This document shows positions 11,571 to 52,040 of a stretch of 64,000 nt of DNA, one piece after another; the first letter of the stretch is position 1, and every line of letters starts with the position of its first letter. The notes below the pieces were generated by a model, which had not been told where the DNA came from, did not search any database, and worked only from the letters and a program-made list of their open reading frames with translations. The position numbers were made by a program, and so were the translations under genes. This DNA is from a virus: positions 1 through 64,000 of the IMG/VR virus record IMGVR_UViG_3300036780_000012; one strand, given 5' to 3'.

Positions 11571-11905
11571 GCCGCTAGCACCGTGTTATCTCCCCACACA
11601 AGATGGAAATCACTGCCAAGATCATTGTTATTCGGGTAATCAATATCCACGCCCGTCGTATTAATCAGGTAGATACTTCCAATCCCCAAATACTGATACT
11701 GTCGAAGCAGATTGAGTCCCGTCACTAGCGGTATCCCTTGTACTAGCAGATTCTGATTGGCATCCGAGATCGACATGATCCAATAGGCCGCTACTTCATT
11801 GAATGCCAGAATAACGAAGAACGTATACACCGCTCCGTTGATAGACACGGCCACGTTAAAGGTCTGACCCGGAGCGCTGTTGATCGGAATAACTTGCAGG
11901 CTCAT
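11567..11905 (-). CDS. Small baseplate plug protein, Pam3 gp18-like
   Basis: 112 residues, all beta. The pattern IPINSAPGQTFNVAVSING, YWIMSISDANQNLLVQGIPLVTG, LLRQYQYLGIGSIYL, then LGSDFHLVWGD matches the baseplate plug family described in cyanophage Pam3. It probably fills the hub. 4-bp overlaps on both sides indicate translational coupling. Confidence 0.7.
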   Translation of the reverse strand: MSLQVIPINSAPGQTFNVAVSINGAVYTFFVILAFNEVAAYWIMSISDANQNLLVQGIPLVTGLNLLRQYQYLGIGSIYLINTTGVDIDYPNNNDLGSDFHLVWGDNTVLAA

Positions 11906-12612
11906 GGTTTGGGGATTGCGTCTACCCCATTCAGCGTACTAAATGAAGGTGGCTGAGTACTGAGGGTTCCCGTACTCGTAGTATTCGTAGCATTCGGGCG
12001 CGCACTGACTGTCTGCGAGCTAACGGTAGCAGAAATAATCTGTTCGAAATGCAGAGTTCCGTTAAAGCCTTGGCTGGTACGGAAGTCGTCGTGGCCGTTG
12101 ACTAAAGACAGCCACATGTTCTGGTAGGTCTTGAGTCTTGTGACTAGAGTTATCGGAGCTCGAGACGCTTGTATCTGCAGGAAGGCCTGAAACGCACTTA
12201 CGCTCTTGCTAGGAACCGAGGAGTACTGGCCCTGTATAAAACTCTGCATAGCGTTCGACATCTTCACCTGCAAAACTATGCGCGCCGGCAGCAGGTATAC
12301 ATGGTCGATGATTGCTGGCCCTACCTGCACAGGATGTCGTGTACCCACAGCTTCCTGCGTATGGTCCGCTAGCAATATGGCATCGAAATAGTAAGTAGTC
12401 GGGCTTCCGGTAGCGGCTTGAGTATTGGCTCCGGTTCCAGAAGCATCTGGCGTAGCTACTCCACCTACTGATCCCGAGCTAGTTACCGATGTAGCGGGTA
12501 ATCCAGGAAGCGTGCAAGTTAAGGAATACTGCTGAGGCTGGCCCCAGTTGGCTGGACGATAGGCTCCCGCTGCAAGAAACTCGTTAAGCGCAATTGCGCC
12601 GAGAGCACTCAA
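11902..12612 (-). CDS. Dit-like tail/baseplate protein
   Basis: 236 residues. The central part (YYFDAILLADHTQEAVGTRHPVQVGPAIIDHVYLLP) matches the N-terminal domain of Dit-like phage proteins, with the conserved DH and HPV motifs. An Ala/Gly/Thr-rich insertion precedes it and a Ser/Thr-rich tail follows. It lies between tape measure and hub, as expected for a distal tail component that starts the baseplate. Confidence 0.75.
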   Translation of the reverse strand: MSALGAIALNEFLAAGAYRPANWGQPQQYSLTCTLPGLPATSVTSSGSVGGVATPDASGTGANTQAATGSPTTYYFDAILLADHTQEAVGTRHPVQVGPAIIDHVYLLPARIVLQVKMSNAMQSFIQGQYSSVPSKSVSAFQAFLQIQASRAPITLVTRLKTYQNMWLSLVNGHDDFRTSQGFNGTLHFEQIISATVSSQTVSARPNATNTTSTGTLSTQPPSFSTLNGVDAIPKP

Positions 12613-14066
12613 GCGTAAGATCCTTGAACGGCTGCAAAGTAGCGCGAAGCTTCTTTTACCGCTGCCTCGTCTATACCCTCTTGTACGGCCTTCTTGATCT
12701 GTTCCTGCGTGGCTCCGGGCTGAGTGATATGGATACCACCAACGTGGATTGTTGGGCTATATGACTGGCGCTTAAAATCAGGGTCCGTCAGGTAGTTGTA
12801 ATCCTTGCGCCATTTGCCGAGTACGTCCTTCTGATAAGCGTCAGCATCCGGTCCACTACCGTTATATTGCCGAGCCTTTTCCTCCCAAGTCGCACCGGGT
12901 TTATTCTTAAGCCAGTTCAATCCACCCCAAATATTCTGTAAAGGATCGTTAGGGTCCGTGATGATGCCTTGAGCCATTAACTGCTTGATCGTATCCGGCA
13001 TCAATTGGAACATGCCGATCTCGCCCTTCGATCCACGTTTCGCCCAAGGATTAATACCGGACTCTTTGTCGGCTATCGCCATAGCCAGTCCAGCAGGAAT
13101 GCCTAATTTTACGGCGTCTTTCAATATCTCTTCGTCATAGTTCACGCCAGATGGATCGCTTTTACTGTAATCCTGAGTCCGCTCATCTAACCCGAGATTG
13201 CCTATCCATGGAATCATGCGTTGTGTACGTGCGACAATCCCCCCGCCGCCCGGTCCTAAATCCTCAATACCATACCCACCCGGATGAGTCTTAAAGTACT
13301 CGCGAGTATAAGGCTCATGCCCGATGCCTACGCTATGCAGGAAACCTTCTAGCATCGAGGCTCCTGCCGAAACCTTATCAAAGGCCCAGACCGCTGCCTT
13401 ACCGATGTCACGCAACGCCGGTGCGATCACGTTCGATGCTACATCGGCGATATGAACGAATCCTTGCGGAGACTGGAACCAGGCATTAAATTCCTTCAGC
13501 CGTTGCTCCAAAGACTCAGACCCGCCAAACAGTTTATTCAGTACGTCCTCGGTAAGCGCTATACCGAACATCTGCAATTCTGGCCCCATTCGAGTGAACT
13601 CAAAGGCTACATCTCGCACGCGACGCATCGCTATTTCCATGTTGACGAAGCCGCCCATGTTCTGAATCATTCGGTCTTGATCTTCGACTAACGTCTTGTA
13701 GCGCTCTCGCAACTCAGGCGGACCGAAGATTACGTCCTGCAGAGATACACCTAAAGTATCCAGCGCAATCTGCATCTTGCGAGCCGACTCCGTACCCATG
13801 AACATACGTCGCGCAAGCATTTGATAACCGAGGTCCTGTTTTGCCAGATTACTCATCATCGAGATAGTGCCCGCTGTTACGCCTGCCGCGATTGCTGCGA
13901 AGGCTCCACTAACAGCTAAAAATCCCAACGTTACATCCTTGGCGAACTTCTCCGTCTTGACCGCAGTCAACTTAAGAGCATCCTCCCACCTGCGTTGACT
14001 CGGAGCGTCAACGGTGAAACCAAGCGAAACGAGATATTCTTTTATTGTGCTAGTTTTCCCGGCCAT
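12609..14066 (-). CDS. Tape measure protein with lytic transglycosylase domain
   Basis: 485 residues. Residues 1-290 are a helical tape-measure region with a hydrophobic segment at about 45-72 (VTLGFLAVSGAFAAIAAG). Residues about 310-430 are an SLT lytic transglycosylase domain: IADKESGINPW with Glu335 as the likely catalytic acid, then GEIGMFQLMPDT, then KARQYNGSG. It sets tail length and opens peptidoglycan during entry. At 485 residues it implies a short tail. It overlaps the end of the frameshifted chaperone frame by 17 bp. Confidence 0.85.
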   Translation of the reverse strand: MAGKTSTIKEYLVSLGFTVDAPSQRRWEDALKLTAVKTEKFAKDVTLGFLAVSGAFAAIAAGVTAGTISMMSNLAKQDLGYQMLARRMFMGTESARKMQIALDTLGVSLQDVIFGPPELRERYKTLVEDQDRMIQNMGGFVNMEIAMRRVRDVAFEFTRMGPELQMFGIALTEDVLNKLFGGSESLEQRLKEFNAWFQSPQGFVHIADVASNVIAPALRDIGKAAVWAFDKVSAGASMLEGFLHSVGIGHEPYTREYFKTHPGGYGIEDLGPGGGGIVARTQRMIPWIGNLGLDERTQDYSKSDPSGVNYDEEILKDAVKLGIPAGLAMAIADKESGINPWAKRGSKGEIGMFQLMPDTIKQLMAQGIITDPNDPLQNIWGGLNWLKNKPGATWEEKARQYNGSGPDADAYQKDVLGKWRKDYNYLTDPDFKRQSYSPTIHVGGIHITQPGATQEQIKKAVQEGIDEAAVKEASRYFAAVQGSYA

Positions 14067-14630
14067 GATTCAGTTCGTCTATGAGAAGATTTATTTCCAC
14101 TAACTGCTCGAAACTATACGTACCATCGTCTACTTCGCAGTGACGCCAGTAGTTTGCGACGACTGGCCGGAAGAGGTAGGGATCGATTCCGGGGTGCTCA
14201 AGTCCGGGAAGACTACGAGCAGAGTCTTCAGCGCCCCCGGAGCGAAAAAACAGTAGAGGTTGAAAACAAGCCCCGAGATAGTCAGGGCGGTGAGTGTTAC
14301 TAGGTCTAACTCTGGAGGAATGAACCGTCCGTCCGCCATTTGCAGCGGCATCGGAACGCGCTGCCCGGCATTATCTTCGTAGCGCTTAATGACATTCAGG
14401 CACTTAGTCTGAATGCGGTTGAATGTTTCCTCGGGAAGTTGCGAGAGGATCGCCGCAAGAGATATTCCTAAATCTTTCTCGCTTATCGGCTTCGCATCTC
14501 CGGTTTCCAACTGCACCAACAGGCCGCGCATATTGAATTGCGCTGCAATCCAACTTCCGTCGCGGGGAGAGAAAGAACCTATCTGATACGTAGTATTTTC
14601 AATAACTACGTCTTTTGTGCGTGGCGTCAC
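14050..14630 (-). CDS. Tail assembly chaperone, -1 frameshift (long) product
   Basis: Reading from 14630 and shifting -1 at TTTTTTC (14250-14244) continues for 66 more codons to a TAG at 14052-14050. The extension (RSGGAEDSARSLPG, then VANYWRHCEVDDG, then EQLVEINLLIDELN) looks like real protein: Trp, acidic helices, no low complexity. No start codon serves it separately. Two-frame chaperones lying between tube and tape measure are a conserved arrangement in tailed phages. The long and short forms would bind the tape measure and the tube during assembly. Confidence 0.8.
14130..14630 (-). CDS. Tail assembly chaperone, short product
   Basis: 166 residues read without a shift (NTTYQIGSFSPRDGSWIAAQ, FNRIQTKCLNVIKRYE, PPELDLVTLTALTISGLV). 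It is placed between the tail tube gene and the tape measure, which is the position of gpG-like chaperones. The C-terminal 35 residues (PESIPTSSGQSSQTTG) are the low-complexity end produced when the ribosome does not shift. Confidence 0.75.
   Translation of the reverse strand: MTPRTKDVVIENTTYQIGSFSPRDGSWIAAQFNMRGLLVQLETGDAKPISEKDLGISLAAILSQLPEETFNRIQTKCLNVIKRYEDNAGQRVPMPLQMADGRFIPPELDLVTLTALTISGLVFNLYCFFAPGALKTLLVVFPDLSTPESIPTSSGQSSQTTGVTAK
14203..14250 (-). promoter_or_regulatory. -1 programmed frameshift signal (slippery heptamer plus stem-loop)
   Basis: On the minus strand the zero-frame codons TGT TTT TTC contain the slippery heptamer T TTT TTC (14250-14244). Three bases later starts a hairpin: TCCGG pairs with CCGGA (14241-14237 with 14207-14203), and inside it GAAGACT pairs perfectly with AGTCTTC (14229-14223 with 14214-14208) around an 8-nt loop. 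Both arms and spacing were read directly. Confidence 0.85.
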
Positions 14631-14646
14631 AATAAGACCTCTTTCC

Positions 14647-15111
14647 TTAAACAGTAATGTTCGCGATATTGCAAGCCATGAGAACCCACGTCAGTTTTCC
14701 ACCTTGCGCGGCATAGGTCTTGTCGGGGATCTTCTCGAAGCTAACGCCCGTCAGGAGATGCTGACTTTGGTCAACAGTATTCCGTAAGCTCAGACTACTG
14801 GCTGCCCAATTAGTAACGTCTCCACCGTCCGCCGCAATCTTCAGCAGGTTATACAGAGCGAGTAATGCTGCGTGTAACGAACTATTCTGCTGCATCTGAA
14901 TCGAGACCGCGCCATTGTCTCCAGCGATGTAGCTAGGCATGACGGTAGAATCCGCCGCTACATCATGCGTCGTACGCACTGTATGCATGGATACAACGAA
15001 CTCCCCCATACCGATCTCCCCGGCAAACACGATAGGCGCATCGAAGAGAACCGGGTTAGTCATGGATCCCGATGTGTCTTTGAAAGAATACGTGGTAGAC
15101 TGAGCCGACAT
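14647..15111 (-). CDS. Tail tube protein, DUF3277-like
   Basis: 154 residues. The pattern TYSFKDTSGSMTNPVLFDAP, ADSTVMPSYIAGDNGAVSIQMQQNSSLHAALLALYN fits the tube proteins of DUF3277-type contractile phages. The C-terminus has LTGVSFEKIPDKTYAAQGGKL. It forms the inner tube and follows the sheath gene by 11 bp. Confidence 0.8.
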   Translation of the reverse strand: MSAQSTTYSFKDTSGSMTNPVLFDAPIVFAGEIGMGEFVVSMHTVRTTHDVAADSTVMPSYIAGDNGAVSIQMQQNSSLHAALLALYNLLKIAADGGDVTNWAASSLSLRNTVDQSQHLLTGVSFEKIPDKTYAAQGGKLTWVLMACNIANITV

Positions 15112-15122
15112 TTAAGTTCTCC

Positions 15123-16529
15123 TTAGAGATTGACGATTACACCGATCACTACCGACTGCACAGCTCCCGCTTCATTGATCACGGTATAAATCGGTTGCGC
15201 CTTCCGAGCGGCTTTATCAGCTTTCGATTGCTGAGAGTAAGGATAGGCTTGACTCAGGAATCCAGCAGGTAGCGGGTCTCCGGGACTGAGCGACAGCACA
15301 TCATTTACACCTTGATACGTTCCGGGAGCCAAATATCCGGTATTGACCGCCGCTTGACATGCCCCATTTACTGCATGGATCAACTGCGTCTCACCCGGAT
15401 CGGTCTGCGGTACGGACGGCGAAGCGATCAGCAGATTCATTATTGAGTACTGAATAGCCGCTGCCAGAATCGCTCGATTGAGTACTGGGTCGATAAACAG
15501 ACCGCTCGGAGTAATGCCGGGAGTCACTAGCGTGTAGGTATTCGCATAACCAACGTAAACGTTACAATTGTTTCCGGTAATCGTATTGACTTGCGCTTGC
15601 GAGAGCGGTTCGGGACTGACGCCGATTAGAGTCTTGCCCCACTCCGTGAAGTAACTGTTCGGCAAGCCGGTGTTCTGACCGACGACGCTCCCCATCAAAG
15701 CCGCTGCACCATAGGCATTATTCGGAGCCACGCCGCTCTGGGTAGTCGAGTAGACTAAGGCGGTATTCGAATACTCATCACCTTTCAGCGTCAACGCCAG
15801 ATTGTTAGGCGCATTATTCAACACGGCGACGTCCGCCGTAGTATGGAAATAGAAAGTAGGAGGAGTAGCAGCTTGAACGTAAGGCGCAATCGCTTCTGCA
15901 TCTGCCGTTGTAGCATTGCAGCACATCACGCCCCAGAATACAGAAGATGCCGAGCGGCAGGCGATTAAGGCGACTAAATAGGTCTCACCGACCGCGGTGA
16001 TGTCTACTTCTAGACCTACCCCATCGCCAGTAGTCGTAGTCGCTAATCCAGTAGCCGTGGAGTACCCGGTACCGTCTGTTCCGGCAGGTGGCGTAAATAC
16101 GGCTAGCCCGGTAACGACTCCGCCACCACCTATTGTAGTAACTTCACATTGACCAAGCGTTGCCCCAGATTGGACTACTACAATTACGTCGCCTACTGCA
16201 TATCCTGTCCCTGCATTGCCCGAATGAGGAATCACGGTATTTAACGAAGTCAGGTCCTGGCGTCCTACCCAAACATAGTTAGGAGGCTCCGCTTGACCGA
16301 AGTACAGAACGGCAGCAATGTATTCTGGACTGGTAGTAGTAAACCCATCCGTCAGCATAGCCGCTAACGTTTGATACTGCCGGAGACGCTGATTAGTACC
16401 GTAGGAAGGAATCACGGCTGAGGGGCCAATGATTAGCCCTTGGTTGAACAAAGGTGGGGCACCTAGCGATGGTCCAGCAATCACAGTTACATCTACGATA
16501 GACTGCAGCGGCAGGGCGGGACTAGACAT
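15123..16529 (-). CDS. Contractile tail sheath, DUF3383-like
   Basis: 468 residues. N-terminal VDVTVIAGPSLGAPPLFNQG, then AAVLYFGQ and PPNYVWVGRQ; the C-terminal part has LFIDPVLNRAILAAAIQYSIMN, all typical of DUF3383 sheath proteins. Residues about 98-180 are an inserted Gly/Thr-rich beta segment (GTGYAVGDVI, GGVVTGLAVF, GTGYSTATGL), probably a surface domain. It establishes the phage as contractile (myovirus morphology). Confidence 0.85.
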   Translation of the reverse strand: MSSPALPLQSIVDVTVIAGPSLGAPPLFNQGLIIGPSAVIPSYGTNQRLRQYQTLAAMLTDGFTTTSPEYIAAVLYFGQAEPPNYVWVGRQDLTSLNTVIPHSGNAGTGYAVGDVIVVVQSGATLGQCEVTTIGGGGVVTGLAVFTPPAGTDGTGYSTATGLATTTTGDGVGLEVDITAVGETYLVALIACRSASSVFWGVMCCNATTADAEAIAPYVQAATPPTFYFHTTADVAVLNNAPNNLALTLKGDEYSNTALVYSTTQSGVAPNNAYGAAALMGSVVGQNTGLPNSYFTEWGKTLIGVSPEPLSQAQVNTITGNNCNVYVGYANTYTLVTPGITPSGLFIDPVLNRAILAAAIQYSIMNLLIASPSVPQTDPGETQLIHAVNGACQAAVNTGYLAPGTYQGVNDVLSLSPGDPLPAGFLSQAYPYSQQSKADKAARKAQPIYTVINEAGAVQSVVIGVIVNL

Positions 16530-17903: not shown

Positions 17904-18094
17904 TTAGATTTGAATGCCAGATTCCGCGAGCAGTACTTAAAGCAACTATTCGTATGAAAGTGGGATTCCAGTTTCTTCGGGACCGTTACAGGAGAAGTAG
18001 CCGCAGCTTTTATCGCTACCCAAAGCGTCACGCCATTCTGCCCTACTGCTATAGCAGAACCGATCAAAGCGAGTACTAATCCAGCGGTTGCCAC
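17900..18094 (-). CDS. Small single-pass membrane protein
   Basis: 64 residues from a GTG at 18094 that shares its G with the upstream TAG (TAGTG), so it is translationally coupled. A hydrophobic segment (GLVLALIGSAIAVGQNGVTLWVAI) is followed by a short tail with two Cys and a His. The family is not recognised. 4-bp overlap downstream. Confidence 0.5.
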   Translation of the reverse strand: MATAGLVLALIGSAIAVGQNGVTLWVAIKAAATSPVTVPKKLESHFHTNSCFKYCSRNLAFKSK

Positions 18095-18867
18095 TACTTC
18101 CAGGGACCGCCTGCATGGACGATTTTAAGATCGGTTTCCGCGTCATCCAGAACCGGAAGTACCATCCAGAAGAAACCAGCAAGGCCCCACTCAGTACCCC
18201 AACTATTCTGAATCAATGCTGCTGGAGGACAGTTCGCGGGACGCAGTGTAGGAGTCTCACCGATGTCGTAGCCCACTATCAGAACCTCGTGACCACCGAG
18301 TACATTTTCGCCGGGTTGAGGATTGTAGATTCCAGTACTCTCCACTTCGTCCGATTCAAACGAGGCATAGACAGTAAAGCCTACCTCTACGGGCCATGGC
18401 GTTGGATCGCCAAGAACGCTAATCGCTACTTGCGATCCGGCCAACCCATGATAGGCACCCATCTTGTACTGAACAGCATTCGCTGTCATCTCTGCCGTTG
18501 GCTGGATAATCTTCTGGCTGGAATCGGGATACAGCGAATCCTCACAAGTACCATCCGCGATTACTACAGTGGACCCCGTAGTGCCATCGGAACCGTTATC
18601 TTGCGGGAAGTCTCCATTGTCGATCAGTTCGTTCGCATAGACGAACAGCGGACTCAGGACAGGTTGCTGGTTTAAGTACCGACGGAATATCCACTCTAGC
18701 GCTTCCGAGAAGGCATGGCCGGTACAGGAACCCAAATTGCCTTGATTCTTTACTGGACCGCACCATTTACGCAAGTCTACAACCTGCAAGGGAGCAAGCA
18801 TTGTACGCGTCAGCATACGGTGCACGGGAAGCGGCGCGGGTATTTTGCGATTGAAAATATGGCTCAT
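18094..18867 (-). CDS. Papain-family (C1A) cysteine protease
   Basis: 257 residues from the ATG at 18867, which overlaps the upstream stop (ATGA) and has AAGGAG 11 nt before it. The C1 triad is all present: Gln42 (oxyanion), Cys48 in QGNLGSCTGHA, His193 in GGHEVLIVGYD, and Asn221 in IQNSWGTEWG. There is no signal peptide and almost no propeptide (about 30 residues before the mature core). A papain-like protease in a head-completion operon is unusual, because the separate DUF2213-type protease should process the head. It may act on a virion protein or be injected. Confidence 0.85.
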   Translation of the reverse strand: MSHIFNRKIPAPLPVHRMLTRTMLAPLQVVDLRKWCGPVKNQGNLGSCTGHAFSEALEWIFRRYLNQQPVLSPLFVYANELIDNGDFPQDNGSDGTTGSTVVIADGTCEDSLYPDSSQKIIQPTAEMTANAVQYKMGAYHGLAGSQVAISVLGDPTPWPVEVGFTVYASFESDEVESTGIYNPQPGENVLGGHEVLIVGYDIGETPTLRPANCPPAALIQNSWGTEWGLAGFFWMVLPVLDDAETDLKIVHAGGPWK

Positions 18868-20849: not shown

Positions 20850-21431
20850 CTACGCGAGAACCTGATACCAGATCGAACCAACCGCTCGACTGACTCCGCC
20901 AAGAAGTTCGTCTACTGCCTGTTTGACTCCGAGCCAGGTCTGATTCCCATCCCAGTCGTAATCATGGCCGCAGATTATGCCTTTCGGTGCTAGCAATTGC
21001 TTCCATGCCAAAATGTCTGCTTTGACATCGCGGTACTCATGCGAGCCGTCAATAAACACCATATCGAAGGGCGCGACGTTCTGACTTAGCAGTTGACTAG
21101 CGGCACTTGTACTGCTCATGCGCATCGCAGTCAGGTTAGTTAACCCGGAGATGTTGGCGAGGAATTGCGCGTGCAGCCAGTTGCGATTCTGCCTCTTCAA
21201 CATTTCCTTGTGTTCGCCGCTTCCCGACCAAGTATCAACTACAAGAACTGTTCCCGGACAATTATCGGCTAATGCCCGAGTACTGCGGCCCATCCATGAG
21301 CCAATCTCTACCACGCGGTGACTAACGGAACCCATTTCAGCCAGCCATATCATCTCCGCCTCATCCATCCAGCCCTCAATGGTTAGAGCGCGTGTGATGT
21401 TTATGCTGACTTCTGGAGTTGTTCTGGGCAT
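20850..21431 (-). CDS. SAM-dependent methyltransferase (class I)
   Basis: 193 residues. The SAM-binding loop VVEIGSWMGRSTRAL is at about residue 40, an acidic VVDTWSGSG follows, and DMVFIDGSHEYRDVKADILAWKQLL, GIICGHDYDW is the Methyltransf_24 pattern seen beside glycosyltransferases. It probably methylates a sugar. Overlaps the upstream glycosyltransferase by 31 bp. Confidence 0.8.
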   Translation of the reverse strand: MPRTTPEVSINITRALTIEGWMDEAEMIWLAEMGSVSHRVVEIGSWMGRSTRALADNCPGTVLVVDTWSGSGEHKEMLKRQNRNWLHAQFLANISGLTNLTAMRMSSTSAASQLLSQNVAPFDMVFIDGSHEYRDVKADILAWKQLLAPKGIICGHDYDWDGNQTWLGVKQAVDELLGGVSRAVGSIWYQVLA

Positions 21432-22075
21432 CTTCCGTTGAACGGAACAGTGAATACTTCTTTGCCGTTATCGCCACCCCATTTAGCTCGGTAGTATGCC
21501 GCGTGCAGGGGATAAACGATGCTGTTGAGGAATCGCAATTTAGGGTCGGCTTTGAGTGTTTGGCTAGGTTCATGCTTGACAGGTAGGCCGGAGTCCAACG
21601 TTAGGTAACTGGCAAGGCGCAAGCGACGATAGTAATCACAGTCTGAGAGATACCAAGGCAGATTTACGTCCCATGGACCAACTGCCATACATGCCTTGAC
21701 ATTCAATGCTACAAGGGCATCGTAGGCAGTAAAAATGCATCCCCAAATACCACCTATATCATTCTCAGTGTCATCTGCGACTCGGCATTGTCGAAGAAGT
21801 TCATCTCCGTGCCCCTTTAAGGCTTCGGCATCGGAGTGCATAAAGAGACAATACTTTCGCTTCCATTCCTTCGCCATTTGCAAACCGAAGTTCATAGTCT
21901 GAGCAAACGTTAATGGACTGCGCGGATGTATGAACCCACTTAAGCCCCGAGGAAGCCCACAGCCTTCTTCTGAATTGTCTATGACGGACGGTCCCAATTG
22001 TTGCACAGAAATACACGCCCGTTTCAGTAAATCAGGTCGGTTGACATAGGGAATGAATAGACAGTAATCCTTCAT
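21401..22075 (-). CDS. Glycosyltransferase, GT2-like
   Basis: 224 residues. The N-terminal YCLFIPYVNRPDLLKRAC is a GT-A opening; KYCLFMHSDAEAL supplies an acidic nucleotide-sugar site, and NLPWYLSDCDYYRRLRLAS a later conserved region. It is coupled by ATGA to the GT4 gene. Likely modifies a virion protein or host surface glycan. Confidence 0.65.
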   Translation of the reverse strand: MKDYCLFIPYVNRPDLLKRACISVQQLGPSVIDNSEEGCGLPRGLSGFIHPRSPLTFAQTMNFGLQMAKEWKRKYCLFMHSDAEALKGHGDELLRQCRVADDTENDIGGIWGCIFTAYDALVALNVKACMAVGPWDVNLPWYLSDCDYYRRLRLASYLTLDSGLPVKHEPSQTLKADPKLRFLNSIVYPLHAAYYRAKWGGDNGKEVFTVPFNGRCPEQLQKSA

Positions 22076-23238
22076 GCTGCTACCAAACTTTCTTTCGAGG
22101 GGGATTGAACTGGCTTAACGCCATCTTCCAACCAAGAGCGCCAGCGAGTCCAGACGTTTCTCCAGTCGAGTTCCTCGGGGAGTTCCCCGCGTATCCCAAT
22201 AGAAGTCTCAATTTGCGTAGTCCAATTTTGGACTGAGAATACCGGACGGGAAGCGCCATAAATTCCATCGCTACGCAGAGCGATAGGTTCGACTAACTGC
22301 CATGGTCGCATCCATTCCGCCGCCCCGCCATAGTTACCATGCACACATGGCGTTCCGCACGCTAGTGACTCGAATATCGGATAACCGAATCCCTCACCGG
22401 ACCCGATACCAAGCGTTACATCACAGGCAGAGTAGTTCTCCGCCATCGCTTCATCCGAAAGCATTCCAGTAGTAACGCGCGCTTGCTGGATACCGAAGTC
22501 TTGAAGCAATCCGGGTATATCCCACTCACGAACGAGCGTATCTGTATGCAGCCAGAGTTCTATGTTTTTAGACTTCGCTAACTCCGCACAAGTCGCTATC
22601 CCTAGTCCCCAATCCTTACGCCGCTGATTCGTTGCGACAATTCCAATCCGTAGAGCTTCGGATGGCTTCCGTTCGCGGGGATAGAACACCGATGTATCAA
22701 TGCCATGCGGTAACGCTTCGAACTCGCATCCATCAAAGGTACGGCTTAGTATCTTCGCGGCCCACTCCGAGTACGCTAGAACGCGGTCATAGCCTTCAAT
22801 CGTTGCTTTCAGCACGCTTCCGAGTTTATCGTTCGGGCCAGTCGCATCTATTGGCAGATAGCCCCACTTCTTAAATAGTTTGCGCTCTAGAAATGACTTC
22901 ACGTACGGATCGGGGCAATACTCCGGCCTTGTAAACCAGAGCAATCGACTGACATCCCAAACAGTAAGCACTATGCCTTGCTGATCTCCTGCGAAGTCTT
23001 CCCAAACACTTGGCAGCGTTCGAGCCACCCAGCCCATAGAAGTATTATTGCCGAGAGACTCCATGTTGTACTGCTGAAATCCTAGTGCCTGCGAACCTGT
23101 ACCATTAGCCCCGTAGGTAGCTACACGAAACTTTGGACAGTAGCGAGCAATGCGAGTAGCTAAGTCGCGGACAATGCGCCCTAGTCCAGAGGAAGCGGTT
23201 GGAGCATCACCTAACAACAGTAGTGGAATAGGTCTCAT
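22072..23238 (-). CDS. Glycosyltransferase, GT4-like (GT-B fold)
   Basis: 388 residues. GDAPTASSGLGRIVRDLATRIA at the N-terminus, AYSEWAAKIL, EALPHGIDTSVFYP, IGIVATNQRRKDWG, and the C-terminal GIGSGEGFGYPIFESLACGTPC are hallmarks of GT4 enzymes (the E-x7-E region). It is probably cytoplasmic. It carries a palindrome copy at 22220-22233, read in another frame as VQNWTT. Confidence 0.85.
   Translation of the reverse strand: MRPIPLLLLGDAPTASSGLGRIVRDLATRIARYCPKFRVATYGANGTGSQALGFQQYNMESLGNNTSMGWVARTLPSVWEDFAGDQQGIVLTVWDVSRLLWFTRPEYCPDPYVKSFLERKLFKKWGYLPIDATGPNDKLGSVLKATIEGYDRVLAYSEWAAKILSRTFDGCEFEALPHGIDTSVFYPRERKPSEALRIGIVATNQRRKDWGLGIATCAELAKSKNIELWLHTDTLVREWDIPGLLQDFGIQQARVTTGMLSDEAMAENYSACDVTLGIGSGEGFGYPIFESLACGTPCVHGNYGGAAEWMRPWQLVEPIALRSDGIYGASRPVFSVQNWTTQIETSIGIRGELPEELDWRNVWTRWRSWLEDGVKPVQSPSKESLVAA
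22220..22233. repeat. Dispersed palindrome, copy 2 (perfect 16-mer)
   Basis: AGTCCAATTTTGGACT at 22219-22234, symmetric except for the central TT. It is inside the GT4 gene, in a reading frame different from the other copies (VQNWTT). Confidence 0.85.
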
Positions 23239-40617: not shown

Positions 40618-41571
40618 TCATTGCTCAAACTCCGTAAAATCTTTCCGAATCGACTCAGGATTCCCGCGAAAGAAACACATCACGTACTGATGCGCACTAC
40701 CAGCCTTACGCCCCTTGGCAAATTGACCATTCACTCGTAATGGCAATGAACCAATGGGCGTCAGCAAAACGAATTCATTGTAGAGTTTGAATCCTGCACC
40801 AAGTAGAGCCGAAGCTGTAGGTTGACGCATGTCACGGATAAAACCTTCATCGTCGCGGATATTTCCTACCACCACAATCGCGAAGCGTTGCGACTTCAAT
40901 CTGCGAGCAGCGAGCAGCATAATGCGCTGATACTTGATTACAAAGTCTTGCCAGTTATCCAGTGTACTTAGGTCGCGGCGGTCGTTTGAATAACGTTCAA
41001 GATTCCAATACGGGGGACAAGTGAATAGCAGATCGTACTCATCTCCCACCATGTTTTCCAGATTCACGCTATCGCCGCATATCCAGTGCGGGTTAGGCTG
41101 ACAAGGAATTTCAATTGCCTGTTTCACGTTCGCATCAATTTGCTCTTGACGAAGATCAATGCCGACGTACTGATAGCCAAGACGACCAGCTACAATGCCG
41201 CGCACGCTGCCACCAGCGAATGGGTCGAAGATACCGAGCGTCGATTTCTCGGGCATATACCATGAGTAAAACAGTTCGCAGAGAACGGGATCGAAGATGC
41301 TACTGGCGTTGCCATCCTCTCCTAAAGCATCACCACGGCCATCACCGCGCCCACGTGCAGCATAATTAGCCGCAGGCATGGCTGAACCGCCCGGAGCCGC
41401 CCAACGCCCCCCCTCGCCTTCCAGTCCTAAAGACAGCCAGTCCCGTTTCCGATCCTGCCACCTGCCCGTTCTCTGGTCGAGCGTCGTAAATGGCGGCTCT
41501 ATGAACCTTTGACACATCGCTCCACCGGGAAGTTTATCTACGGTCGTATTCCCGAACAAATCAGTTTCCAA
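40618..41571 (-). CDS. DNA methyltransferase (N4/N6 amino type)
   Basis: 317 residues from a TTG at 41571 preceded by GAGGAGGAAG. The protein then begins METDLFGNTT, a usual opening for phage methylases. FDPFAGGSVRGIVAGRLG is the SAM-binding motif and LLFTCPPYWNLERYS the TCPPY catalytic motif. A Gly/Arg-rich loop lies at about 50-100. It is probably self-protective or epigenetic. Overlaps the upstream gene by 11 bp. Confidence 0.85.
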   Translation of the reverse strand: METDLFGNTTVDKLPGGAMCQRFIEPPFTTLDQRTGRWQDRKRDWLSLGLEGEGGRWAAPGGSAMPAANYAARGRGDGRGDALGEDGNASSIFDPVLCELFYSWYMPEKSTLGIFDPFAGGSVRGIVAGRLGYQYVGIDLRQEQIDANVKQAIEIPCQPNPHWICGDSVNLENMVGDEYDLLFTCPPYWNLERYSNDRRDLSTLDNWQDFVIKYQRIMLLAARRLKSQRFAIVVVGNIRDDEGFIRDMRQPTASALLGAGFKLYNEFVLLTPIGSLPLRVNGQFAKGRKAGSAHQYVMCFFRGNPESIRKDFTEFEQ

Positions 41572-43798
41572 TGACTTCCTCCTCGTCCAAAATTGGACTG
41601 TCGATAGCACTCTCTGAGAACAAACCTTTATTCATCGTTGCGGCTGCCGCAAGATTTGCGCACGCCTGCTTCCAGTAAGACTCTTTTAATTCGATCCCGA
41701 TAAACTTTCTTTGCACCTTGACTGCCTCATACCCCTCACTACCGATCCCCGCGAAAGGTGAAAGTACGGTATCAAATGGGTTCGTCCACAACTTCAAAGC
41801 ACGAGCAATTACTTCCAACTGCAAAGGACATATATGCCGCTCGTCGCGTTCTTCGCGTGCCGATTCACGTTGCAAAGTATCGCTCGGATTGATATCCATC
41901 CAGACAGGAGAGGCATAGCGCTGCCAGACTTGTACCGGTAAATCCTCTGCCGTATGAGTTACACGTTGGGGATTGTCTCCATGCTTTCGCATTGTTACCA
42001 GATAATCCGGAATGCCTTGACGGCTCATGCACGAATCTTTCTTGAGTTGTTTATGAAGTAATCCGAGAGCTTTGGTTCGCTGCATCGCAGTCACAGGATC
42101 TTTCCAGATAGTTACCTGCGAATGCAGAATGAATCCAGCCTGCTCGAATAGAGCAATGAGCTTGCCGCGAAAATCCGTGATACCAATTACACCGTCTCGT
42201 TCTTTCGATGTAGGGAGGTCCATGCAGTGAAAACTCATCAGTCGCCCAGGCAGCAGAACTCGTAGCAATTCGGGAGCGAGAAAGCGAAGATGCTCAAAGA
42301 ACTCCTCATGCGTCCGGGAATTCCCCATATCACGTTCTGAAGCTGAATACGTGTAGAGCGATGCGAACGGAGGGGAAAAAATACTGTAGTGAATTGAGTT
42401 GGCGGGGAACTTGGATAGAACCTCCACGCAATCACCTAGATGCATCGTCCAGACTTCGCCAGCATCAATCTTGTGCTCGTAATTGACTTTCTGGCGAACA
42501 TTGCCCTTGATCTCTGCTTGATTTAATTCGTGCATGTTGTTCACCATCTCTTCTGCCATCCTCTGAGCATCGGCCTCTTTGCGTTTGATATTCTTCACTA
42601 CTTCTCCCTCGGCTGTACTGGTAACTATGTAACAATCAACTTCTTGCTTTTGTCCGAACCTCCAACACCTTCTCACCGCTTGGTAAAATTGTTCGTATGA
42701 ATCAGACAACCCGAGAAATACAACGTTATGGCAGTTTTGCCAGTTGAGCCCGAATCCTGCGATGCTAGGTTTCGTGACCAGTATCCGAATCTTGCCCGTA
42801 GCAAAGTCAATCATGCTGCGTTCTTTGAATTCAATCGAATCAGAGCCGCATACCTCAACTGCTCCGTCAATTCGCTCGACCGCAGCCCGACTTTCACTGT
42901 TAAGATTGCACCATATTAACCATTGCTCTTTTCGCTTTGCAGAAACAATTGCCGCTACCTCGTCGGCCCGTTCCTCGACACTCTTAGATCGGGCTTGTTG
43001 GCGCTCTTGTAGTGTAACGGCTGGCATCTGAAAGAGCATTCCTTCCGTGCATGTTTCGGCATCGACCTGACGCTCGTGAATTCTTAAGGCAGGCAGTTGA
43101 AACAGATCATCGTTATATCCGAGGTCTGACGGTTTGCGTAGCATTACTGCCCAAGAACATACCCACTTCCAGAACTTCGTCTCAGCATGACCCTTGAGCC
43201 GCCATTTCGATGTATCCCCACCATCATGCACAAAGAATGTTGAAAGCATTTCTGTGCGCGTCAGGTTGCCTAAAAATTCTGAATGGTTACCGAGTTCCAT
43301 GAAGTCATTCGGGGCTGGGGTTGCCGTACATGCAAGTTTGTACGGGGTATCACGAAATCTCTCGATAATTAGATTGCGGAACTTCCCTTCAAAATGCTTG
43401 ACAATGCTCGATTCATCTAGGATGATTGCTTCGTATTTATTCGCATTGAAGTGCTCTAACATTTCATAATTGGTGATTGTAATAGCAGCATCGCGTTCAG
43501 GCTTGCGCTGATAACAGACTTCAACATCGAATTTCCCGCCTTCGCGCACCGTTTGAGGAGCTACGGCAAGAGGGGCGAGAATCAGCGTCTTAACTTTCAA
43601 TGCATCGGCCCATTGCAACTGCATTGGTGTCTTACCTAATCCACAATCTGCAAAAATAGCAGAGCGCCCTTTGCGAGCGGACCATCGCGTAATATCTATC
43701 TGAAAATCAAACAACTGCTTATTTAGGCCGACAATATCTTTTCCAGATGCGACATGCGTCACTACTTTTGACGCTAAGAATTGTTTATAGTTCTTCAC
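41561..43798 (-). CDS. Helicase-DNA methyltransferase fusion
   Basis: 745 residues. Residues 1-440 are SF2/SNF2-like: Walker A ADCGLGKT (51-57), DE box ILDES (127-131), ACTATPAPNDF motif III, and motif VI QAVRRCWRFGQ. Residues about 480-720 are a methylase: YSIFSPPFASLYTYS (SPPF catalytic motif) and VLSPFAGIGSEGYEA (SAM motif). The domain order suggests a methyl transfer coupled to DNA unwinding. A palindrome copy at 41585-41598 lies in the last 15 codons (SPILDEEE). Confidence 0.85.
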   Translation of the reverse strand: MKNYKQFLASKVVTHVASGKDIVGLNKQLFDFQIDITRWSARKGRSAIFADCGLGKTPMQLQWADALKVKTLILAPLAVAPQTVREGGKFDVEVCYQRKPERDAAITITNYEMLEHFNANKYEAIILDESSIVKHFEGKFRNLIIERFRDTPYKLACTATPAPNDFMELGNHSEFLGNLTRTEMLSTFFVHDGGDTSKWRLKGHAETKFWKWVCSWAVMLRKPSDLGYNDDLFQLPALRIHERQVDAETCTEGMLFQMPAVTLQERQQARSKSVEERADEVAAIVSAKRKEQWLIWCNLNSESRAAVERIDGAVEVCGSDSIEFKERSMIDFATGKIRILVTKPSIAGFGLNWQNCHNVVFLGLSDSYEQFYQAVRRCWRFGQKQEVDCYIVTSTAEGEVVKNIKRKEADAQRMAEEMVNNMHELNQAEIKGNVRQKVNYEHKIDAGEVWTMHLGDCVEVLSKFPANSIHYSIFSPPFASLYTYSASERDMGNSRTHEEFFEHLRFLAPELLRVLLPGRLMSFHCMDLPTSKERDGVIGITDFRGKLIALFEQAGFILHSQVTIWKDPVTAMQRTKALGLLHKQLKKDSCMSRQGIPDYLVTMRKHGDNPQRVTHTAEDLPVQVWQRYASPVWMDINPSDTLQRESAREERDERHICPLQLEVIARALKLWTNPFDTVLSPFAGIGSEGYEAVKVQRKFIGIELKESYWKQACANLAAAATMNKGLFSESAIDSPILDEEEVIGN
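41585..41598 (-). repeat. Dispersed palindrome, copy 5
   Basis: Coding strand AGTCCAATTTTGGACG. It lies in the last codons of the helicase-methylase gene, about 14-27 bp upstream of the TTG start at 41571 of the second methylase. Confidence 0.85.
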
Positions 43799-51251: not shown

Positions 51252-52040
51252 TTATTTCACCGCTATCATACGTTTGACCAAATCAACAGCGGAATTCTGT
51301 AGAACTACCAAAGTCGGTTTCAAAGCAGCCCTCGCAGCAGCCCACGCAGCAGCCCTCGCAGCAGCCCCCGCAGCAGCCCCCGCAGCAGCCCCCGCAGCAG
51401 CCCACGCAGCAGCCCCCGCAGCAGCCCACGCAGCAGCCCTCGCAGCAGCCCCCGCAGCAGCCCCCGCAGCAGCCCCCGCAGCAGCCCCCGCAGCAGCCCT
51501 CGCAGCAGCCCCCGCAGCAGCCCACGCAGCATCCCTCGCAGCAGCCCTCGCAGCAGCCCCCGCAGCATCCCTCGTAGCAGCCCTCGCAGCATAAGCATTA
51601 TCGCGGACGGCTTCTATAGTGCCGCGAATAGAAGGTGTTTGAGTAAAGTCGGTAATTCTCGGCAGCGATTCTAGCGCTTCGGCACTAGTAGTCAAGCCAG
51701 CTAACCGCAACCACATTGGAGTATGTACGCGAATCAGCCAATCGGCGCATAGTATCGCTCGCTGAACCTCTACCTCTTTCGTTGATCGGGTACCGATTAG
51801 ATCGCGGATAAGCGGCTTCAAAAGACGGTCACGGTCCGCATCGCTTGGCAATGCATCATTCCATGAACGCAGGAAAGCGCTGATAACCGGACAAGCGCAT
51901 TTAGGATGGTCGCTCCATGATTCACCCGCAACAAAGGCAACAGCTTCCATCACGCAGAAAGTCGAGTCCGGGGAATGCGCTCCGGCTTTCAAAGATAAGT
52001 TAGCAAGTTTATTCCAACGTTCTTCAATTACTGGAGTCAT
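51252..52040 (-). CDS. Phage protein with long alanine tetrad repeat
   Basis: 262 residues. Residues 1-150 are a helical domain common in phages (STFCVMEAVAFVAGESWSDH, SAFLRSWNDALPSDADRDRL, LCADWLIRVHTPMWLRLAGL). Residues about 150-240 are AAxA tetrads (AARA, AAGA, AAWA) in a long helix or bundle. The tail is NSAVDLVKRMIAVK. The DNA repeat is 12 bp, so copy number changes keep the frame. The role is unknown; families of this design occur across actinophages and soil phages. Confidence 0.7.
   Translation of the reverse strand: MTPVIEERWNKLANLSLKAGAHSPDSTFCVMEAVAFVAGESWSDHPKCACPVISAFLRSWNDALPSDADRDRLLKPLIRDLIGTRSTKEVEVQRAILCADWLIRVHTPMWLRLAGLTTSAEALESLPRITDFTQTPSIRGTIEAVRDNAYAARAATRDAAGAAARAAARDAAWAAAGAAARAAAGAAAGAAAGAAAGAAARAAAWAAAGAAAWAAAGAAAGAAAGAAARAAAWAAARAALKPTLVVLQNSAVDLVKRMIAVK
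51324..51592. repeat. 12-bp tandem repeat (minisatellite) coding for Ala tetrads
   Basis: About 22 copies of GCAGCAGCCCNC-type units, differing mainly at two positions (ccc/cct/cca and c/a). All three minus frames and one plus frame stay open. Likely unstable in replication and variable among relatives. Confidence 0.9.

Follow-up and report, generated by a model that had tools for sequence, protein, structure and literature searches.

The tail assembly chaperone gene of this virus very probably gives rise to two proteins through −1 programmed ribosomal slippage at a T TTT TTC heptamer (14250–14244, minus strand), a reading drawn from comparison of sequences. The window, that is, the whole stretch of 64,000 nucleotides that was analysed, is contained in a 73.6-kb virus record. 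A −1 programmed frameshift in the tail chaperone had been proposed in a first-pass annotation, and it is the best-supported reading of the locus, with both the slip site and the −1 frame kept in relatives. Taken alone, the window sequence is suggestive. As judged from the aligned relatives, the conservation of the putative frameshift is far beyond chance.

The gene lies in a myophage tail module on the minus strand, arranged in the order sheath, tube, chaperone, tape measure and Dit-like protein. The tail sheath protein (DUF3383; 15123–16529) matched PF11863 with 153 bits and phrog_205 with E 1e-71, and the tail tube protein (KPP10_Orf10 family; 14647–15111) matched PF11681 with 107.7 bits. 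The short form of the chaperone, encoded in the 0 frame (14130–14630), comprises 166 aa and begins with GTG; a Shine-Dalgarno-like sequence, AAGGAAAGAGG (14638–14648), is read 7 nt before this start codon. Its identification is based on matches to Phage_TAC_15 (PF21822), with 31.5 bits compared to the curated Pfam cut-off of 22, and to phrog_1688 (tail assembly chaperone), with E 1.8e-8. The ORF call and profile matches place a tape measure protein of 485 aa with an SLT transglycosylase domain at 12609–14066, followed by a Dit-like protein recognized by profile matches at 11902–12612, all on the minus strand. The location of the chaperone gene between the tail tube gene and an SLT-containing tape measure gene is the one expected for Phage_TAC_15.

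At the slip site, the codons of the chaperone 0 frame read TGT TTT TTC GCT. The heptamer is thus in the X XXY YYZ phase, as had been stated earlier, and it is aligned in one column with the heptamers of the relatives. The −1 frame encoding the C-terminal extension of the long chaperone (14050–14250, minus strand) continues for 64 codons after the heptamer; the 66 codons given originally are obtained when the two slip codons are counted. It was also said to end within the start of the tape measure gene, and its stop codon is indeed found at 14052–14050, 14 bases beyond the tape measure ATG at 14066. The conserved core of the extension spans 14053–14187, and the peptide VANYWRHCEVDDG, previously assigned to the extension, falls in its most conserved part. 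The tape measure ATG, which sits inside the end of the extension, is without a clear Shine-Dalgarno sequence, and translational coupling is possible at this position.

For the recovery of relatives, single-sequence searches of viral and genome contigs with the chaperone and the sheath gave no confirmed relative, and profile queries were therefore needed. With sheath profiles, approximately 230 loci were collected from viral and genome contigs regardless of any frameshift, and a match to the extension domain counted in whichever of the three frames it occurred. The homologous C-terminal domain (PHROG 4364) was found in the −1 frame in 218 loci and otherwise in only 2, meaning that the downstream frame is conserved. 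The exceptions among the sheath-fetched loci were L071, where the extension is in the +1 frame as sequenced, and L003, where the chaperone frame is broken. L071 was the sole locus combining an intact-looking chaperone with a +1 extension; TTTTTTC is still present there, and a sequencing indel is possible.

A profile built from 13 near relatives, with the window excluded, recovered the window extension at E 1e-11. The window extension alone matched phrog_4364, a family listed as ‘unknown function’, at E 1.4e-5. The consensus of the extension was FFRR...P....NxDxFLxxPVxAGxWxQHExxDGTYxxxDLLDxHE.

Two alternatives concern the extension itself. The first is coincidence, meaning that the −1 frame just happens to be open in a GC-rich overlap, with no product made from it. 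Its probability was estimated with a null model in which the 0-frame protein was held fixed and the codons were resampled. The −1 frame remained open across the overlap in 19% of these trials, a point in favour of coincidence; across the whole extension, with the intergenic bases also shuffled, the value was 2.8%. However, the extension is homologous to those of 217 other loci and the position of the heptamer is conserved, in genes where the background of in-phase A/T heptamers outside the site is about 0.0016 per codon. Coincidence is accordingly regarded as extremely improbable.

The second alternative, which we regard as very unlikely, treats the extension as a small gene in its own right, whose translation would begin at a start codon of its own or through re-initiation once the short form has been completed. 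A separate small ORF is called there in several annotated relatives, and phrog_4364 is listed as a family of its own, both of which would agree with such a gene. In the −1 frame of the window, however, the first ATG, GTG or TTG is codon 51 of 66, downstream of the conserved core, and a start codon of these three kinds before the core is likewise absent in 95 of 175 loci. In addition, the −1 frame is also open back across the slippery site. Because no ATG, GTG or TTG precedes codon 51, slippage is the only evident route to the extension of the window.

The variation of the slippery site was evaluated by aligning 158 distinct chaperones. The first-pass annotation had suggested looking for homologous sites in relatives, and a slippery heptamer was present at the same codons in 137 of the 158, counting those with at least one canonical A/T heptamer in three adjacent columns that represent overlapping registers. 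T TTT TTN, in the main column to which the window heptamer belongs, occurred in 112 chaperones. The group C CCT TTT, A AAT TTT, G GGT TTT and C CCT TTC accounted for 65, and G GGA AAT for 17, with the register types often overlapping. Perfect re-pairing in the A site was kept in 19 of the 21 chaperones without a canonical heptamer, combined with an imperfect P site, mostly as G CCT TTT. Relatives with an imperfect P site included L185, L130 and L156 (G TTT TTT), as well as L037, L039, L042, L051 and others (G CCT TTT).

This variation bears on a further alternative, in which the slip takes place during transcription: some transcripts would receive one additional U when RNA polymerase slips at the T6 run, and the two frames would be joined already in the mRNA. 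T6 is common at the site, being contained in the T TTT TTN class described above, and an extra U would yield an identical protein. However, the T run in the window is just six nucleotides long, and transcriptional realignment is usually reported for runs of T >8 (PMC3711429). Many relatives also carry CCCTTTT, AAATTTT or GGGAAAT at the same position, sequences that suit re-pairing of tandem tRNAs and are poor substrates for polymerase slippage. Polymerase slippage is consequently considered improbable, and the pattern of heptamers across relatives is in better agreement with tandem tRNA slippage than with a polymerase slipping along a T run.

Regarding RNA structure, the hairpin drawn in the first-pass annotation was only partly retained. 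It had been placed three bases after the heptamer, but only two bases (GC) precede TCCGG. Energetically, the drawn hairpin falls short of the best fold of the same 60 nt (−13.6 vs −25.0 kcal/mol), but the inner part of the hairpin, GAAGACT (14229–14223) paired with AGTCTTC (14214–14208), does form in the best fold once the first 5–7 nt are excluded. In the best fold of the complete segment (−25.0 kcal/mol), the favoured downstream stem joins the 5′ arm TCCGGGG (14235–14241) with the 3′ arm CCCCGGA (14188–14194), both on the minus strand, at a pair probability of 0.99. This fold begins 2 nt past the heptamer, a spacer shorter than the 5–9 nt of many studied frameshift sites (PMC5009743). When the first 5–7 bases were excluded, as if occupied by the ribosome, the best fold consisted of GGGG/CCCC, GCU/AGC and GAAGACU/AGUCUUC, with the GGGG/CCCC helix reduced to three pairs when seven bases were excluded. 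Compared to shuffled sequences, the fold energy of the window was ordinary, with z values of −0.74 to −1.19. For 61 near relatives, the mean z was −1.17 ± 0.19 after the heptamer, indicating more structure there than in the control regions, with −0.17 upstream and −0.49 further downstream.

RNAalifold returned no consensus structure for the ungapped clade alignment, and stems were therefore tested by direct pair counts. In an ungapped alignment of 30 of these near relatives, the best pairing was between nucleotides 15–22 and 61–68, numbered from the first base of the heptamer and corresponding to a spacer of 7 nt, with an arm-permutation p of about 0.001. In an alignment of 26 sequences, the helix peaked at zero slide, with a covariation of 0.296 compared to 0.057–0.192 for slid positions, and 1 of 500 shuffles reached this value; both significance values are optimistic, because the stem was picked for ranking first among about 2000 antidiagonals. 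In split-half trials, the same antidiagonal was picked in 24 of 40 cases, and antidiagonals picked from half A had an average rank within the top 1.7% when scored on half B. Arm-permutation z scores were equally high for other antidiagonals. The stem of the window is related to that of its clade, not column-aligned with it, and its linker is 3 codons shorter. Beyond the clade of the window, the structure signal was weak and did not exceed that of a control region, so the stem is no general requirement. The pair counts thus indicate a covarying stem about 7 nt past the heptamer in the window's clade, and not convincingly elsewhere.

A broader reading of the site data, to which we assign somewhat less than an even chance, describes a series of −1 sites fixed at one position of the protein. 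The heptamers would vary at this position (T TTT TTN, C CCT TTT, A AAT TTT and G GGA AAT) and occur in overlapping registers. Sites at which only the A-site tRNA re-pairs perfectly (G CCT TTT, G TCT TTT and G TTT TTT), an under-described class, would also belong to the series, and a covarying downstream stem would have been added in the clade of the window and be absent in others.

The occurrence and rate of ribosomal slippage, the influence of the stem and the functions of the two protein forms, as we infer them, may be outlined as follows. Most ribosomes would produce the 166-aa short form (14630–14130). A minority would slip back by one base with tRNA-Phe on UUU in the P site and on UUC in the A site of U UUU UUC, probably assisted by the mRNA stem located just downstream. 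The product of the slip would be a long form of 193 aa, the last 64 residues of which would come from the −1 frame. If the lambda gpG/gpGT pair is taken as a model, the part shared by both forms would form a coat around the tape measure protein, and tail tube subunits would be brought in by the additional C-terminal domain. With these roles for the two parts, the rate of slippage would set the ratio of the forms that tail assembly needs.

In the AlphaFold model, residues 21–66 of the extension formed a small helical domain (pLDDT about 83–95), preceded by a linker of low confidence. With this model as the query, Foldseek found nothing significant in the PDB (best E 7.6). Its best match among viral proteins was a 73-aa hypothetical protein of phiEcoM-GJ1 (E 0.25, probability 0.90), possibly the same domain called alone.

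The mechanism and the locus are already known in related phages, and the system of the window is mostly ordinary; −1 frameshifting as such is textbook knowledge. Phage lambda, with the slippery site G GGA AAG, is a siphophage, whereas the window carries a myophage tail module; a further point of difference from lambda gpG/gpGT is the downstream stem for which there are indications in the clade of the window. The lambda G/GT precedent has been reviewed (PMC5009743).

Closer counterparts are found in Burkholderia phage Magia and Klebsiella phage Mulock, in which a homologous chaperone with a likewise homologous −1 extension occupies the same position as in the window. Their tape measure chaperones were annotated independently and deposited as joined frameshift CDS, and the programmed frameshift of Magia has been reported (PMC7883833). 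The sheath proteins of both are about 36–39% identical to that of the window over the aligned part. Magia carries the heptamer C CCT TTT and Mulock the overlapping G GGA AAT, A AAT TTT and T TTT TTG, in contrast to T TTT TTC in the window.

A −1 frameshift of the chaperone has also been described in Felix O1-like phages and Vandenendeviridae (PMC4319497, PMC5543628, PMC12846349), and the ORF downstream of the chaperone is mis-annotated in Vandenendeviridae (PMC12846349). In Vandenendeviridae and Andersonviridae (Adele, KPP10 and Felix O1-like phages), the −1 extension lies between the chaperone and the tape measure, as in the window; it is often mis-called as a hypothetical gene, and the slip motif GTTTTT is conserved. 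The KPP10 site, G GTT TTT, differs from T TTT TTC of the window in its imperfect P-site re-pairing. The chaperone and extension of KPP10 gave no match at E 10 to the chaperone or extension profiles built here.

The new elements of the present analysis are how widely the locus is conserved, the assignment of phrog_4364 to the C-terminal part of the chaperone, the exchange of heptamers at a constant position and the stem specific to the window's clade. The annotation of PHROG 4364 is corrected accordingly: in a large group of myophages and prophages with a DUF3383 sheath, it forms the C-terminal half of the frameshifted chaperone. Annotated phages were recovered with the sheath as query; tblastn with the fused protein gave only one weak match in annotated phages. 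The earlier statement that gene calling misses the frameshift holds for most of the 16 annotated records, where the extension region is blank in nine and called as a separate small ORF in five, but not for the remaining two, in which the frames are joined. The approximately 158 distinct natural sites at one position can be used for testing phage slippery sequences and stems.

Several other features of the window were noted. Amid the head-tail genes, a Peptidase_C1 domain (papain-family cysteine protease, 49.5 bits) is encoded at 18094–18855 (minus strand), an unusual cargo for a phage structural region. An insertion between head-tail genes at 20850–23238 (minus strand) encodes a methyltransferase and, separated from it by a further ORF, a group-1 glycosyltransferase. 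A helicase (SNF2-like/Helicase_C) fused to an N4/N6 DNA methylase is located at 41561–43798 (minus strand), and a highly alanine-rich repetitive ORF is open on both strands, at 51252–52040 (minus) and 51274–51594 (plus).
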